NCBI GenBank assembly: GCA_902782235.1
Contig: CACZML010000001.1
Span: 1-64,000 of the forward strand
DNA length: 64,000 bases
Source: Oscillospiraceae bacterium
GTDB taxonomy: Bacteria; Bacillota; Clostridia; Saccharofermentanales; Saccharofermentanaceae
Direction of reading: 5' to 3'
The translations under genes were made by a program, and so were the position numbers. Shown piece after piece: positions 39,203 through 64,000 of the stretch. Every line of letters begins with the position of its first letter. Within the stretch, counting starts at the first letter, position 1. The notes below the pieces were generated by a model. It was not told where the DNA came from. It saw nothing but the letters and a program-made list of their open reading frames with translations, and did no database searches.

Positions 39203-40315
39203 TCAGGCAAACTCGAGATCACCGAACAACGGGCTGTTCGTCTGACCTGCGTTATTGATGAAACGCTTAAGATCTTCAGGGATTCTGCATCTCTGGAGAG
39301 CAGTATCTCTTGTGATCATATTACGCTTAACAAGCTCTGCAAGATAGAAATCGAGAGGGCACATACCCTGCTGAAGGCTCGTAGCGATCGTGGAGTCGAT
39401 CTGATATGTCTTACCTTCACGGATATTATTCTTAATAGCATCGTTGGAGATCATGATCTCGAAAGCAGCACATCTGCCTCCGCCGATTCTCTGTACGAGT
39501 GTCTGACAGATAACGGCAACAAGACATGTAGCGAGCTGAACTCTGATCTGATCCTGCTGATGCGGCGGGTAAACGTCGATGATACGGTTAACTGTATCAG
39601 CAGCTGAAGACGTATGGAGTGTTGAAAGAACGAGGTGTCCTGTCTCGGCTGCGGTAATAGCAGTGGAAATTGTATCGAGGTCACGCATTTCTCCTACGAG
39701 GATGATATCCGGATCCTCACGGAGAGCAGCTCTAAGAGCGTTAGCGAATGAAAGTGTATCCTCGTGAATTTCTCTCTGGTTGATCATAGCTTCTCCGTGC
39801 ATATGGAGATACTCGATAGGTTCCTCAAGAGTCAAGATGTGGCACTTCTTGCTCATGTTAACGTGACCGATCATTGCAGCCAGTGTTGTGGACTTACCGG
39901 AACCCGTAGGACCGGTAACGAGGATGAGTCCTCTAGGTCTCATAACCAATTCCTTGAAGATGTTAGGAAGACCCAACTGCTCACATGTAGGAATCTCATT
40001 TGTAATAGTTCTTGCAGCAAGAGCATATGTACCACGCTGCTTGAACACGTTACATCTGAAACGGCTGAAGTTCTCAACAATGTACGAGAAGTCGATCTCA
40101 CCTCTCTCGTTCAGATACTGCTGTCTTGATTTGTCGATCATTGACTTGCAAAGATACTCAGTATCTGCAGCTGTAAGCGGCTGATTACCTAACGGCATCA
40201 ACATACCGTCAACACGAATCATAGGCGGCAATCCTACCGTAATATGGGTATCGGATGCTCCCATCTTTACCGATTCAGCCAAAATCGATTCGATCGATAA
40301 ACTAAATCCTTCCAC
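39203..40315 (-). CDS. pilT: Type IV pilus retraction ATPase PilT
   Basis: 370-residue hexameric ATPase powering pilus disassembly and twitching. Walker A GPTGSGKST at residues 135-143, Walker B-region ILVGEMRDLDTISTAITAAE, and the His box HLVLSTLHTSSAADTVNRIIDVYP. It has the PilT-type start (an N2 domain beginning ILAESVKMGASDTHI) and lacks the tetracysteine motif of PilB. Its presence means the pilus is probably retractable. It is the second gene of the pilus operon. Confidence 0.95.
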   Translation of the reverse strand: MEGFSLSIESILAESVKMGASDTHITVGLPPMIRVDGMLMPLGNQPLTAADTEYLCKSMIDKSRQQYLNERGEIDFSYIVENFSRFRCNVFKQRGTYALAARTITNEIPTCEQLGLPNIFKELVMRPRGLILVTGPTGSGKSTTLAAMIGHVNMSKKCHILTLEEPIEYLHMHGEAMINQREIHEDTLSFANALRAALREDPDIILVGEMRDLDTISTAITAAETGHLVLSTLHTSSAADTVNRIIDVYPPHQQDQIRVQLATCLVAVICQTLVQRIGGGRCAAFEIMISNDAIKNNIREGKTYQIDSTIATSLQQGMCPLDFYLAELVKRNMITRDTALQRCRIPEDLKRFINNAGQTNSPLFGDLEFA

Positions 40316-40332
40316 GTTAAAAAACCTCCTTA

Positions 40333-41997
40333 TCAGTCAATCGTGTAAGCAACTCTGTTGAGCTCGCTGACCGTCGTAATACCTTCAAGTACGAGGTCTC
40401 TTGCGGAATCCTGAAGCATCTGTGTGCCTTCAGTGACAGCGAGTGCGCGCATCTCATCTTCGCTTGCTCTCTTCTCAAGCAAAGCCTTCATCTTCATTGT
40501 AATGATTACGATCTCATGGATAGCAATACGTCCCTTGTATCCCTTTTCATTACATTCTGTACAACCCTTACCACGATAGAGCTTCTGGCCCGGATCGAGT
40601 CTTAAGTACTCTCTGTCGTAAGCTTCAGGTTCATAAGATTCTCTGCAGTTAGTGCAGATACGGCGAACAAGACGCTGGGATACAACGCCAACCAGGGCTG
40701 AAGATACCATGTAAGGCTCCAGACCCATGTCGATAAGACGGTTGATGGAAGATACAGCATCGTTCGTGTGGATAGTACTGAATACAAGGTGTCCGGTGAT
40801 AGCAGCTCTCATAGCGATCTCAGCAGTCTCACCGTCACGGATCTCACCGACGAGGATGATATCAGGGTCCTGACGCAAGATGGATCTGAGGCCGCTCGCG
40901 AATGTCATTCCGGCCTTAGCGTTAACCTGGACCTGGTTCAATCCGGGGATCCTGATTTCTACAGGGTCCTCAACTGTGATGATATTAACTTCGTCTGTAT
41001 TCTTCTCTGAAAGGAGTGTGTAAAGGGTTGTTGTCTTACCTGAACCTGTAGGGCCTGAGATAAGGACGATACCCTGAGGGATCTTGATCATCTTGTCGAT
41101 CATCTCATTGTTACGATCGCTGATACCAAGATACTTTCTGTTCAAGTTAGCGTCATTCTTAGCAAGGATACGGATAACGGTCTTCTCACCGGTAACGCAG
41201 GGAAGAATGGATACACGCATGTCCACGTCCTCACCATTGATAACTGTCGTGATACGGCCGTCCTGAGGAATACGCTTCTCGGCGATGTTCATACCGCCAA
41301 GGATCTTGATTCTTGTTGTGATGGCGTCTTTTGCGGAAATAGGGTTGCTCATAACTTCCTGCATGACACCGTCGATTCTGATACGGACTCTTACTCGGTC
41401 TTCGAGAGGTTCGATATGAATATCGGATGAGCCTGAACGGATAGCATATTCGATCATTGAGTTAACGAGCTTAACAACCGGGGCGCTGTTAACTGCTTCT
41501 GAAAGTTCGTTGTCATCATCAAGGCTGTCATTTGCAAGGCTCGTACCGAGCTCTTCTGCAGCCTTGTTGGCGTTCTCTCTTCCGTAATGTACTTTAATAG
41601 CATCAATAATAGAAGTATGTGTTGCAAGCATCAGGGATATCTGGTATCCGGTCTGGAACTGCAACTCGTCTTCAATGGTAATGTTCATCGGGTCATCGAT
41701 AGCAACTACAAGGGTGTCACCATCGAAACCAATCGGGAAAACAACGTTCTCTTCACAGAATTTCTGTGTTAAAAGAGCTGTTGCCTTGGGGTCAACATCA
41801 ATACCTGACAGATCGATAATCGGATAATTATACTGGCTGGAAACCGCCCTCAAAATGTCGAATTCCGACATCAAACCGCTCTCAACGATAACTTCACCAA
41901 GACGTTTGCCGGTTTCCTTCTGAATACTAAGTACTTCTGCAAGTTCGGTAGCATTTAAGAATCCGCTCTCGACCAGAATATCACCTAATCTCTTCAT
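40333..41997 (-). CDS. pilB: Type IV pilus extension ATPase PilB
   Basis: 554-residue GspE/PilB ATPase powering pilus assembly. N-terminal MshEN-type domain (LGDILVESGFLNATELAEVL), Walker A ISGPTGSGKTTTLYTLL, ILVGEIRDGETAEIAMRAAITG, HLVFSTIHTNDAVSSINRL, and the zinc tetracysteine CTNCRESYEP...CTECNEKGYKGR. MshEN domains in some homologues bind cyclic di-GMP; whether this copy does is unknown. First gene of the operon with GGGAGGG upstream of the ATG. Confidence 0.95.
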   Translation of the reverse strand: MKRLGDILVESGFLNATELAEVLSIQKETGKRLGEVIVESGLMSEFDILRAVSSQYNYPIIDLSGIDVDPKATALLTQKFCEENVVFPIGFDGDTLVVAIDDPMNITIEDELQFQTGYQISLMLATHTSIIDAIKVHYGRENANKAAEELGTSLANDSLDDDNELSEAVNSAPVVKLVNSMIEYAIRSGSSDIHIEPLEDRVRVRIRIDGVMQEVMSNPISAKDAITTRIKILGGMNIAEKRIPQDGRITTVINGEDVDMRVSILPCVTGEKTVIRILAKNDANLNRKYLGISDRNNEMIDKMIKIPQGIVLISGPTGSGKTTTLYTLLSEKNTDEVNIITVEDPVEIRIPGLNQVQVNAKAGMTFASGLRSILRQDPDIILVGEIRDGETAEIAMRAAITGHLVFSTIHTNDAVSSINRLIDMGLEPYMVSSALVGVVSQRLVRRICTNCRESYEPEAYDREYLRLDPGQKLYRGKGCTECNEKGYKGRIAIHEIVIITMKMKALLEKRASEDEMRALAVTEGTQMLQDSARDLVLEGITTVSELNRVAYTID

Positions 41998-58333: not shown

Positions 58334-58409
58334 ATCCTGCTAATCCTAGTAAAATCAAATGTTTATACCCCGATTTTATCACACGTCCACAGGCTTTGCG
58401 TGGAGTTAT

Positions 58410-58438
58410 TTGTTCTTTTTGAGGCAGGTCTGTATAAT
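58410..58438 (+). promoter_or_regulatory. Promoter placed for a leaderless DUF4015 transcript
   Basis: TTGTTC (58410-58415), a 17-base spacer, TATAAT (58433-58438). The ATG follows 6 bases after the -10 box, so transcription should begin at about the start codon. No ribosome site is seen. Confidence 0.65.
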
Positions 58439-58444
58439 TGTCCT

Positions 58445-59794
58445 ATGCTAAATAATAATAACTTAAATAACGATCCTACTAATCCGGACAATCTTGAGCT
58501 GGCAAAACTCAGAAGATTGCTTACGATCCTGCTCTCCGTGGCAGCGATCCTTGCTGTCGTTCTGGTAACTTTGGGAATCACAAAGATAATAAGCCACGTC
58601 AACACCGGAGAGACTACTGTAAACATTCCTATCCTCGTAACTATCAACTCTGAGAGCACGACTGTTACAGATCCCGTCAACTATCACACAGAGCAGTTAG
58701 TCTCATCCGAGCTTGCCGAGAGTTACTGGCGCCCGCTCCCCGAGATCGCGGAAGAGGATGTTAAGAAGCCTGAGCACTTTGAGGTAAAAGGCCTTTATAT
58801 AGGAACCTGTTCCAACCTTGATAAAGCCATCGAGCTTTGCAAGAACAGCGAGATGAATTCCGTTGTAATCAACCTTAAGCAGGAATACGGTATCCCTTTC
58901 AAGACAAAGAATGAGACAGCCAGAGAGATCGGTTATGTCTGGGACGCTTATGACATCGACAAAGTAGTCAAGAAGTGCCATGACAACGGCGTCAGGGTAA
59001 TCGGCCGTGTCGTTTGCTTCAACGATTCACTTGCCGCAGAGCACTTCCCTAAAAGAGCCATAACCGATGTATCAGGTAATGTCGTACGATTCAGCAACGA
59101 AGGAAACAACCCCTTCTTAAGCCCCTATAACACCGAGAACTGGGATTACCTGATCGAGATCGCCTTGGAAGGCGTTGAGCATGGTGTTGATGAGATCCAG
59201 TTCGACTACGTGCGTTTCCCTGCAGGCTCCACCAAGAACAAGGCTAAGCCTTACTATGGCGAGGAAGGCCAGACACCTACAAAGGCTGAAGCAGTTAACA
59301 GATTCCTTCAGGAAGCAAGGATCAAGATCCAGGATACACACGGCATTCCCGTATCAGCAGATATCTTCGGTATCGTTCTTACTTCAGAGCTTGATGCCGG
59401 CATCATCGGCCAGGATTTCGCGACTTTGGGCATGACCGAGATCGATTCGTGCTGCCCGATGTTATATCCTTCGCACTATGCTCTTGGAACGATGCTCGCA
59501 GGCCATGTTTTCAAGACTCCGGACAAAGAGCCTTACCTTATCGTCTACAGCGTACTTCATGAATGCCGGTCGACCTATGTCCAACCCGGCTTTACGACTA
59601 TGAGGCCGTATCTGCAGGCTTTCACAGCGTCTTATATCGGCAAGGGCAATTACATGGAATACGGCTACAGAGAGATCAATTCACAGATCAAGGCGATCCA
59701 TGACGCAGGTATAACAGAATTCATCCTGTGGGACCCTAAATTCAACTATCCGTCAGGCAACTACGACGGAAATATGTCAGTTCAGACAGATTGA
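58445..59794 (+). CDS. DUF4015 putative glycoside hydrolase, membrane-anchored
   Basis: 449 residues from the ATG at 58445. A low-complexity Asn-rich N-terminus precedes a membrane helix (about 27-49) and a linker, then an outer TIM-barrel-like domain: VKGLYIGTCSNLDKAIELC, MNSVVINLKQEYGIPF, VRVIGRVVCFND, VDEIQFDYVRFPAG (a likely catalytic Asp region), PVSADIFGIVLTSE, CCPMLYPSHYALG. This matches the DUF4015/putative glycosyl hydrolase family; substrate unknown. The longer frame back to 58400 starts ahead of the promoter and is rejected. It is probably translated from a leaderless mRNA. Confidence 0.87.
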   Translation: MLNNNNLNNDPTNPDNLELAKLRRLLTILLSVAAILAVVLVTLGITKIISHVNTGETTVNIPILVTINSESTTVTDPVNYHTEQLVSSELAESYWRPLPEIAEEDVKKPEHFEVKGLYIGTCSNLDKAIELCKNSEMNSVVINLKQEYGIPFKTKNETAREIGYVWDAYDIDKVVKKCHDNGVRVIGRVVCFNDSLAAEHFPKRAITDVSGNVVRFSNEGNNPFLSPYNTENWDYLIEIALEGVEHGVDEIQFDYVRFPAGSTKNKAKPYYGEEGQTPTKAEAVNRFLQEARIKIQDTHGIPVSADIFGIVLTSELDAGIIGQDFATLGMTEIDSCCPMLYPSHYALGTMLAGHVFKTPDKEPYLIVYSVLHECRSTYVQPGFTTMRPYLQAFTASYIGKGNYMEYGYREINSQIKAIHDAGITEFILWDPKFNYPSGNYDGNMSVQTD

Positions 59795-61197: not shown

Positions 61198-61430
61198 CCT
61201 GCCGTCTGTAGAATTCCTTAGTTCCAACTTTCACTGTTTTGTTGACTAAGTCGTGCGGGAAAGCCAACTTTTCCTCAATGTTGACCGTTTGGGTACCTGT
61301 TTTCGCTAAAACAGTCAACCAAACAGGTACTTTTGCCCAATGTTGACTGTTTGGGTACCTAAATCTCGAAAAACAGGTATCAATTTAGTCAACAAGGGGG
61401 CGCTTGTTGCAGAAACTATCCGGTCATATG
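61198..61430. repeat. Structured repeat element with five GTTGAC boxes between serS and rpmB
   Basis: No gene here. The perfect 11-bp inverted repeat TTGTTGACTAA (61239-61249) and TTAGTCAACAA (61385-61395) bounds a 157-bp stretch. Inside are two 23-bp direct copies of CAATGTTGACYGTTTGGG+TACCT (61276-61298 and 61338-61360, one mismatch), an inverted pair GTACCTGTTT/AAACAGGTAC (61293-61302, 61321-61330) and the small hairpin TGTTTT-CGCT-AAAACA (61299-61314). It could be a folded RNA, a multi-site operator or a small transposon-derived element. I see no reading frame or promoter. Confidence 0.65.
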
Positions 61431-61431
61431 C

Positions 61432-61464
61432 AAAAAAGAGGTCGCCTCATATGAGACAACCTCT
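61432..61464 (-). terminator. Terminator after rpmB
   Basis: On the minus strand, AGAGGTTGTCTC - ATAT - GAGGCGACCTCT, followed by TTTTTTG. Confidence 0.88.
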
Positions 61465-61488
61465 CGGATACTACTTTAGCAAAGAACC

Positions 61489-61686
61489 TTACGCTCTTTC
61501 AACCTTGCCGGAACGAAGGCAACGTGTGCAAACGTTCATTGACTTGGGGGTGCCGTCAACAACAACCTTAACTCTGTGTACGTTAGCCTGCTGCGTAGTA
61601 AGCGCGCGTCTTGAAATCTGTGAACGCGTGATTCTAATCTTTCTGCCGAAGAACATATCTTTCTGGCAAACTTCACACTTAGCCAT
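61489..61686 (-). CDS. rpmB: 50S ribosomal protein L28
   Basis: 65 residues, the zinc-binding form: MAKCEVCQKDMFFGRKIRITRSQ with Cys4/Cys7, and MNVCTRCLRSGKVERA with two more Cys near the end (CTRC). Binds 23S rRNA late in large-subunit assembly. The AGGAGGTG ribosome site and a near-consensus promoter (TTGCAC, 17 bp, TATTAT) precede it. The paired Cys show that this genome's L28 is the zinc-plus type. Confidence 0.97.
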   Translation of the reverse strand: MAKCEVCQKDMFFGRKIRITRSQISRRALTTQQANVHRVKVVVDGTPKSMNVCTRCLRSGKVERA

Positions 61687-61721
61687 GCAAACACCTCCTG
61701 TTAGAATTCAAATGCCTAAGA

Positions 61722-61750
61722 ATAATACCACAACCGATTTAAGAGTGCAA
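61722..61750 (-). promoter_or_regulatory. rpmB promoter
   Basis: On the minus strand TTGCAC (61750-61745), a 17-base spacer, TATTAT (61727-61722), 35 bases before the ATG. Confidence 0.65.
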
Positions 61751-61773
61751 CAAGTTTTTCGCTTATTTTCAGG

Positions 61774-63027
61774 TTATATTACCTTACTGCTGAATAAGCG
61801 TCTTATCGTTACGATTCTTTCGCATATTGCGTCGCCGGAAGAGAAGTTGCGGAGCTTCAACGTGGTCCTCGCAGGCGAGAGCATAAAGAGCGTTCCGGTA
61901 TCGGTGCAGACGGCCATCTCATAGATCTTCTTGTCGTTCGGATCCTTTGGATTCGACAGGAATAATATATCGCCCGGCAGGATCTGGTCGACCATGATCT
62001 TACCAGTAACGGCATCCGGTTCAGGGACGATCTCTGTTCCCGCCTTTGCCTGTTCTTCCATAGTTCTGGGGATCCTGATACCGTTTACTTCAGCGCAGAC
62101 ATAAACAATGCCGTTAACTGAAGCTCCGTTTATGGACATGCCGTTCTGGATATATCTGCTGTTAACGAACGTCAGCACCGAGCTGACGAAGTAACGGCTC
62201 GATACCTCTTCGGTCTCTTCTCTCGGTGACAGCTCGATAACGCCGGATGAACCGATCCAGCCTGAATCTCCGCCCGGGAGCGCAACCTGATAAACGCCTT
62301 CTCTCTTGATATCAGCGTAGAGCACCGTGTTCATCATGACCTTCTTGATCAAGGTACCGTTGCTCGCGTGCGTCATGACGTTCTTGGAAGGGTCAGACAC
62401 TATGAGCTTGTACTGATGTAAGTCAGGCTCGATGGAATTTTTATCCTTTACAAGACTCGATTCCTTAACAAAGCCGGAGATACCGTCAGCTGTCTCTATC
62501 TTGCAGTATCCGTCCTTAGCGGGAGATACATATTTTACAGGCTCATTGTAAAGGACTTCGGCGATCCTTGCAGAAGCAGGATCAGGTTCGGTCATGAGGG
62601 CAATTGTGCTCTCCTTTACTACCCTGTAGCTTTCATCTTCGAATTCGAGATTAATTACAGGCTCAACGAAGAGTTCGATGTTGGTACCTTTGAAGAGGTC
62701 AGGCAATACTCTAGGGAGAATGTAGAAGACGCCTACGATAAGAAGGATAAAAGCAGCGATCGCAATAGCGAGGCTTACGATCTTCCTCTTCTTGACGCCG
62801 CCTAAATTGGCCTGCTTCGCGGAAAGCCCCCACTTCTCCTCCATGTCCTCTGCGCTGCCGTACTGTTCCTTGTCCTCATCCATATCCTTAAGGAAAGGCA
62901 GGTTTACAGGGCGCTCTAAGTGCCTGATGGTCTTGGTTGGCAGTTCGCCGCCTACCTGAGGCTTTTTCTTGGGCTCGAAAATCTTGAAGATTCCGCCTGA
63001 TTCAGTTGTCTTCTCGCGTCTCTTCAT
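61774..63027 (-). CDS. Membrane protein with SH3-like domains and a catalytically dead NlpC/P60 domain
   Basis: 417 residues from the ATG at 63027 (TGATG overlap with the acpS stop; GGAGAAGGA upstream). A charged cytoplasmic part of about 80 residues precedes a membrane helix (about 83-105); outside are two SH3-like domains (about 135-195, 205-265) and a C-terminal NlpC/P60-like domain (about 278-410). The latter keeps the fold pattern (FVNSRYIQNGMSINGASVNG, IRIPRTMEEQAKAG, QILPGDILFLSN), but the Cys of the usual DCSG is Val304 and the position of the catalytic His is Glu370. So it should bind but not cut peptidoglycan stem peptides. Neighbours acpS and a DnaC-like ATPase give no clear link. 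Confidence 0.78.
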   Translation of the reverse strand: MKRREKTTESGGIFKIFEPKKKPQVGGELPTKTIRHLERPVNLPFLKDMDEDKEQYGSAEDMEEKWGLSAKQANLGGVKKRKIVSLAIAIAAFILLIVGVFYILPRVLPDLFKGTNIELFVEPVINLEFEDESYRVVKESTIALMTEPDPASARIAEVLYNEPVKYVSPAKDGYCKIETADGISGFVKESSLVKDKNSIEPDLHQYKLIVSDPSKNVMTHASNGTLIKKVMMNTVLYADIKREGVYQVALPGGDSGWIGSSGVIELSPREETEEVSSRYFVSSVLTFVNSRYIQNGMSINGASVNGIVYVCAEVNGIRIPRTMEEQAKAGTEIVPEPDAVTGKIMVDQILPGDILFLSNPKDPNDKKIYEMAVCTDTGTLFMLSPARTTLKLRNFSSGDAICERIVTIRRLFSSKVI

Positions 63028-63425
63028 CAATCCTTCTCCACCAGCATTACGCAGTAAGCAGCTGCCATTCCGCCGTCATGGGACAGGCTTATCGAGACAG
63101 AACTCATTCCTAATTCATCTGCATGGGAAAGTGCGCCGCCGTAAAGCTTTATCCCGGGCATGCCTCTCTCATCTTTTATAACTTCTATATCGTGCATTCC
63201 GACGCCTTCGCTCAGAAGTCCCGTGCCAAGAGCCTTGCCTACAGCTTCTTTTGCAGCCCATCTGGCCGCAAAGCGCTCTGCCTTCTTCTTGAGGTCCTTG
63301 GATGAATTGCAATAAGCGATCTCGTCTTCCGTAAAGCACTTATCAAAGAAAGCCGTGTTACCGTCTTCCAAATTCTTTACAAACCTGGTGATATCTACGA
63401 TGTCGATTCCGCAGCGTACTTTCAT
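63027..63425 (-). CDS. acpS: Holo-[acyl-carrier-protein] synthase
   Basis: 132-residue AcpS that transfers 4'-phosphopantetheine from CoA to the serine of acyl-carrier protein. Conserved motifs: RCGIDIVDITRF with the first Mg-binding Asp, and FAARWAAKEAVGKALGTG with the Glu. The start at 63425 (MKVRCGIDIV) is chosen; a longer in-frame run reaches into the upstream ATPase gene and is not needed. The stop overlaps the next ATG. Confidence 0.93.
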   Translation of the reverse strand: MKVRCGIDIVDITRFVKNLEDGNTAFFDKCFTEDEIAYCNSSKDLKKKAERFAARWAAKEAVGKALGTGLLSEGVGMHDIEVIKDERGMPGIKLYGGALSHADELGMSSVSISLSHDGGMAAAYCVMLVEKD

Positions 63426-63436
63426 CGGAAGTGTTC

Positions 63437-64000
63437 TTACCTGCCTTCCGAAGAAATCGTCTTTGCAGACTGGAGCTTGCCGCTGATCCTCATGTCGCAC
63501 TTCTTGATAAGTTCAGCAACAGGGAAAGGCGTAACGAGCACTGTCGGAAGCTTGGATGCAGCTCTGGTCTCCAGAATGGAATTCAAAACAGAGCCTACGT
63601 TGTTATAAAGTGTAACGCTGTCAGCAAAATCATCGATTATGAGGAAATCAATGTGCTTGATATCATCTAAAGTATCTGTGCCGATAGATGCCAGATCCTC
63701 GCATTTTGCGTAATATGCGCTCTTGCCGAGATTAATGGCAGTCTTGCAGACAACTATAGCAAGGAATGTCTTTCCGGTCTGAGGTGCAGCGGAAAAAACG
63801 CATAAAGGCGATTCATTTTCTTCATTCTGACCGGACATGAATCTTAAAAGTTCACTCCTGATCTTCTCGCGTTTCTTTGCATCACCTAAATAATCGGCTC
63901 TGTAATTCTCGATCTTATAAGAAGAATAGTCAGCCATTCCGCTGTGTTCATAGCAATCATCAAGTTCTTTGCTTCTGCACGGACACACCTTCTGGAAGCC
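63437..64000 (-). CDS. DnaC/IstB-like helicase-loader ATPase, cut by the right edge
   Basis: 187 residues seen; the reading frame is still open at 64000 and the N-terminus is outside. The visible start GFQKVCPCRSKELDD has the cysteines of a zinc knuckle as found in DnaC/IstB-type loaders. A Walker A-like SAAPQTGKTFLAIV (first Gly replaced by Ala) and Walker B HIDFLIIDDFADSV follow, with PTVLVTPFPVAEL as the sensor-1 region. Loads the replicative helicase, or serves a related DNA task. Its stop is 12 bases from the acpS start. Confidence 0.8.
   Translation of the reverse strand, partial: GFQKVCPCRSKELDDCYEHSGMADYSSYKIENYRADYLGDAKKREKIRSELLRFMSGQNEENESPLCVFSAAPQTGKTFLAIVVCKTAINLGKSAYYAKCEDLASIGTDTLDDIKHIDFLIIDDFADSVTLYNNVGSVLNSILETRAASKLPTVLVTPFPVAELIKKCDMRISGKLQSAKTISSEGR

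Follow-up and report, generated by a model that had tools for sequence, protein, structure and literature searches.

A predicted membrane-anchored pseudopeptidase of the YkfC fold, conserved across a clostridial order

Introduction

The stretch of DNA analysed here (the window) comprises positions 1 to 64,000 of contig CACZML010000001.1, from a rumen-dwelling Oscillospiraceae bacterium of the order Saccharofermentanales. Near its end lies a gene for a protein with the fold of a cell-wall peptidase and none of the catalytic residues. The product is probably (we put it at about 0.6) a membrane-anchored pseudopeptidase that arose from a YkfC-type SH3b-SH3b-NlpC/P60 enzyme and serves the envelope as a scaffold or adaptor without catalysing hydrolysis. 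Alignments and a predicted structure show a protein to which the Cys-His mechanism is unavailable and whose substrate pocket is mostly replaced, with the fold kept and the gene held under purifying selection, beside acpS, throughout the order.

A first-pass annotation had described an SH3 membrane protein whose NlpC/P60 domain is dead, with Val for the catalytic Cys and Glu for the His, and had suggested that it might be a regulator or sense cell-wall peptides. The description holds up in every part; a regulatory role is possible, and the sensing proposal fares less well. Three results go beyond that annotation: the loss is order-wide, it appears to have happened more than once, and the nearest active relatives are lipoproteins of the YkfC type.

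Results

Domain layout and predicted fold

The gene is single-copy in its own genome. Its product is laid out as follows:

61774..63027, minus strand: open reading frame (ORF) of 417 amino acids, ATG at 63027; membrane-anchored YkfC-fold pseudopeptidase, from the ORF reading and the predicted structure
62791..63027, minus strand: putative cytoplasmic N-terminal tail, residues 1-79, with the family motif YGxAEDxxxxWxL (residues 56-68); from low model confidence and motif conservation
62695..62790, minus strand: transmembrane helix, residues 80-111, with an invariant Pro105; from model and alignment
62440..62631, minus strand: SH3b1, residues 133-196, with Ile183 in place of YkfC Tyr118; from Pfam, model and alignment
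62221..62439, minus strand: SH3b2, residues 197-269, the protein's most conserved domain; from the alignment and the lowest dN/dS (ratio of nonsynonymous to synonymous substitution rates)
61789..62208, minus strand: NlpC/P60-fold pseudo-catalytic domain, residues 274-413, with Val304, Glu370 and Met382 at the triad positions; from model and alignment

The ORF contains both of the NlpC/P60-type landmarks that the first-pass annotation had picked out, IPRTMEEQAKAG and ILPGDILF. Taken alone, the single sequence is weak evidence for an NlpC/P60 domain, because its Pfam scores fall below the cut-offs: 16.6 bits against 23 for NlpC/P60 (PF00877; 19.3 in the genome search) and 26 bits against 27 for SH3_3. 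The homology is clear from the family profile and the predicted fold. The profile matches the solved structures 3pvq (7e-20), 3npf (1.5e-19) and 3h41 (1e-14). An AlphaFold2 model built with 58 orthologs (alignment A1) has a mean predicted local distance difference test score (pLDDT) of 85; residues 130-410 mostly exceed 90, and residues 1-79 are of low confidence. Among solved structures it is closest to Bacillus cereus YkfC (3h41), with Z 27.5, 264 residues aligned and 2.8 A; the Bacteroides dipeptidyl-peptidase VI structures follow at Z 25.6-25.8. Over about residues 275-412 the predicted structure matches single NlpC/P60 domains at Z 13-16. The model likewise bears out the helix at 80-111 and, together with Pfam, the SH3 domains. 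The KKRK preceding the helix suggests that the N-terminus faces the cytoplasm. The tail motif is kept at 70% or more in the window's family.

Loss of the active site and of the pocket

What remains of the enzyme? The catalytic and pocket columns were identified from a profile alignment to 3h41 and a joint MAFFT alignment, and the pocket was assessed by aligned positions. In YkfC the triad and the L-Ala/gamma-D-Glu sites are built from these residues; the free amine of L-Ala is bound by Tyr118 of SH3b1, which together with Asp256 defines the subfamily (PMC2954226). All three triad residues are gone from the window protein: Cys238 corresponds to Val304, His291 to Glu370 and His303 to Met382, the last a loss that the first-pass annotation did not mention. 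An NlpC/P60 cysteine peptidase has the dyad and a third polar residue, and here the three positions hold Val, Glu and Met. Tyr118 has become Ile183, a position occupied by Leu, Ile or Phe in 54 family members. In the pocket itself Trp228 is replaced by Gln294, Ala229 by Asn295, Asp237 by Ser303, Ser239 by Asn305, Asp256 by Thr322, Ser257 by Met323 and His290 by Tyr369; Thr84 corresponds to Ala156. Only Tyr226 (Tyr292) and Arg255 (Arg321) are kept. Asp is found at the Asp256 column in 2 of 54 family members. The two-SH3b arrangement of the YkfC subfamily is present, and its two diagnostic residues are not.

The losses extend across the order. Among the 58 order sequences of A1 the Cys column holds V, I, M, T, P, S, L and G plus a single C, and the His column never holds His; no Cys-His dyad was found in any order member examined. 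The first-pass annotation had held that a Cys-His pair drawn from other positions would overturn it. Not one His lies between residues 274 and 413, which leaves no way to form a replacement dyad within the domain; rescue of catalysis by other residues was rejected on the same ground. It is very improbable that the protein is an enzyme using another nucleophile or catalysing another reaction. Ser303, Cys374 and Glu370 are conserved in the family, as such an enzyme might require; but Cys374, on the strand that follows the former His position, has no His in the domain to serve as its base, and across the remainder of the order the triad positions are variable.

Within the window's family, the positions of the former pocket hardly vary (Ser303, Arg321 and Met382 at 98%, Glu370 at 96%, Tyr369 at 94%), and all but the kept Arg321 carry new residues. 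Elsewhere in the order, pocket as well as triad positions vary.

These data bear on the proposal that the dead pocket still recognises L-Ala-gamma-D-Glu peptides and relays a signal to the cytoplasm by way of the helix. The YkfC fold and the SH3b1-NlpC arrangement are retained, as are the counterparts of Tyr226 and Arg255, and a transmembrane helix with a conserved tail motif would suit a sensor. Against this, the equivalents of Tyr118, Trp228, Ala229, Asp237, Ser239, Asp256, Ser257 and His290 have all changed. Because most of the L-Ala/D-Glu contacts are lost, the old pocket is unlikely to sense classical muropeptides, and we regard a sensor of this kind as quite doubtful.

Conservation and selection

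Matches to the gene were found in 80 of 85 genomes of the genus, 110 of 115 of the family and 177 of 188 of the order, and the gene is under purifying selection across the order, as judged by sequence comparison. A local accident or an assembly error is ruled out by this conservation. Close relatives are labelled Saccharofermentans and other Clostridia, and many are rumen-derived. Among close relatives the median pairwise dN/dS is 0.034 for SH3b2, 0.058 for the NlpC fold, 0.132 for the tail and 0.155 for SH3b1. With a median dS of about 1.4, close to saturation at synonymous sites, these values are rough and better suited to ordering the domains than to measuring them. The same genome has four other NlpC/P60 genes, at least two with an intact DCSG and His; dead and active forms therefore coexist in one genome.

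Could the gene simply be decaying? The catalytic residues are lost, and a few orthologs are split by frameshifts into two ORFs each (L026, L030 and L054/L105, in genomes G072, G073 and G065), through sequencing error or real breakage. The frame is nevertheless open in nearly all order genomes, dN/dS is low and SH3b2 is 92% identical among close relatives, so that we give a pseudogene almost no credence.

The selection data also weigh on a simpler account, in which the SH3b domains grip the wall, by its peptidoglycan or by some other polymer, while the NlpC fold serves only as a structural prop. Other bacterial SH3b domains bind wall material, and SH3b2 is the most constrained part of the protein. 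Yet the NlpC fold is itself strongly constrained and carries near-invariant new residues at the old site; a plain wall-binding anchor is unlikely, if not negligibly so.

Relatives outside the order

A profile search found full-length relatives in other clostridial families. Most have a lipobox-like cysteine behind a signal-like stretch, and none of those read has a cytoplasmic tail and helix like the window protein's. Several (L124, L129 and L142-L144 (one genus), also L177) carry the complete YkfC set of Tyr118, Trp228, Asp237, Cys238, Ser239, Asp256 and His291, and L124 matches 3h41 at 1e-28. By sequence, the closest active relatives are YkfC-type lipoproteins. Others are half-dead, with one dyad residue left: at the Cys and His positions L125 has Cys/Glu, L145 Cys/Asp, L183 Cys/Leu, L175 Ser/His and L178 Tyr/His. 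These five would be useful intermediates for comparing activity. Three groups show other replacements: Ser with Asp or Gly in f28, Gly with Asp in f27, and Ala or Ser with Ser or Cys in f65.

An IQ-TREE phylogeny of 79 rows, computed without the active-site columns and with active two-SH3 NlpC proteins as the root, unites the order in a single clade (97/99) and the window's family in another (100/100). If loss is irreversible, the dyad was lost 7 times on the maximum-likelihood tree and 5 to 11 times on 200 bootstrap trees, while unordered parsimony, which allows regain, needs 4 changes; the count is approximate because the deep backbone is poorly supported. Recurrent loss is supported by the differing replacements and by losses within family f55. 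A count based on Cys alone (15 irreversible events) was not used; it is inflated by a stray Cys in L092, which has Ser at the His position. The switch from a lipid anchor to a transmembrane helix fits on the order's branch.

The acpS neighbourhood

Immediately upstream lies the gene for holo-ACP synthase:

63027..63500, minus strand: acpS, joined to the ORF by a TGATG overlap; Pfam ACPS, 77 bits

In the TGATG the ATG of the ORF overlaps the acpS stop, and GGAGAAGG precedes the ATG. acpS is immediately upstream on the same strand at 51 of 54 family loci and 26 of 27 loci in the rest of the order; in two family exceptions and the sole exception elsewhere it lies within about 300 bases, as measured from the ORF ends used. 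Outside the order it is immediately upstream at 2 of 3 f27 loci; in L126, L127, L130 and L123 the upstream distance is 3.3-3.5 kb, and where the interval was read it holds a metallophosphoesterase gene and an AAA gene. This neighbourhood supports orthology and informs function little.

Farther upstream in the order are DnaD/DnaB-like and DnaI-like genes. At L055:5725-7639 a DnaI/IstB-like ATPase and a DnaB_2 (replication initiation and membrane attachment) protein are encoded upstream of acpS, and window positions 63437-64000 are the end of a DnaI/IstB-like ATPase. Elsewhere in the window, a nearby plus-strand stretch (58400-59794) encodes a membrane-anchored DUF4015 putative glycosyl hydrolase (Pfam, 286 bits), and 39203-41997 holds two adjoining secretion/pilus ATPase-like ORFs, read as PilT-like and PilB/GspE-like. 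A listed ORF at 61340-61924 (plus strand) is antisense to an apparent minus-strand L28 ribosomal protein gene and is probably spurious.

Discussion

How might a dead peptidase serve the cell? As an envelope scaffold, the protein would meet a cytosolic partner through the YGxAEDx4WxL motif of its tail and span the membrane with its single helix. On the outside, SH3b2 and the rebuilt pocket (Ser303, Arg321, Tyr369, Glu370 and Met382) may bind a wall polymer or a surface protein.

Several points weigh against the scaffold reading. The role is one that we infer, and its partner is putative. The conservation signal of the pocket is modest, 3.9% of random position sets reaching the mean over its 12 positions, and the dN/dS values are as coarse as stated above. 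Beyond the window's family the tail motif is not clear, and the linkage to acpS may reflect a housekeeping operon only.

Among known systems, the protein shares architecture, fold and full-length profile with YkfC and dipeptidyl-peptidase VI; unlike them it lacks the triad, Tyr118 and Asp256, and where they have a signal peptide or a lipid anchor it has a transmembrane anchor and cytoplasmic tail. RipD of Mycobacterium tuberculosis (Rv1566c) is the closest precedent for a dead NlpC/P60 domain and the sole well-described case that we found in the open-access literature. It is a non-catalytic peptidoglycan-binding protein with Ala83-Ser132-Glu144 at the catalytic positions (PMC12067865). The window protein matches its structure (4jxb) at Z 13.5; RipD, however, is described with C-terminal pentapeptide repeats and without the window protein's layout of SH3b pair and transmembrane helix, and the NCBIfam RipD model scores 15.1 bits against a cut-off of 215. 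A looser parallel is offered by EnvC, NlpD and ActS, degenerate LytM-domain proteins that have a wall-hydrolase fold without catalysis and regulate partners by activating amidases, although their M23 fold is unrelated.

According to the authors of the YkfC study, about 1% of NlpC/P60 proteins lack the dyad (PMC2954226). Non-catalytic NlpC/P60 proteins and YkfC folds are already known; what appears to be new is a transmembrane-anchored dead form of the YkfC fold that runs through a whole order. Our search of the open-access literature found no description of such a form, and none of this protein in Saccharofermentans.

A broader idea can be offered tentatively. In clostridial YkfC-like lipoproteins the essential job may be old and non-catalytic, with activity optional and lost about seven times while a binding role centred on SH3b2 was kept under selection. 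The window's order would then have acquired a transmembrane helix together with a docking tail in the cytoplasm, making the protein a linker from a cytosolic process to the wall. A whole-order dead lineage, with sister groups that keep, half-keep or lack the active site, forms a natural series in which one orthologous gene can show what a wall peptidase does besides cutting.
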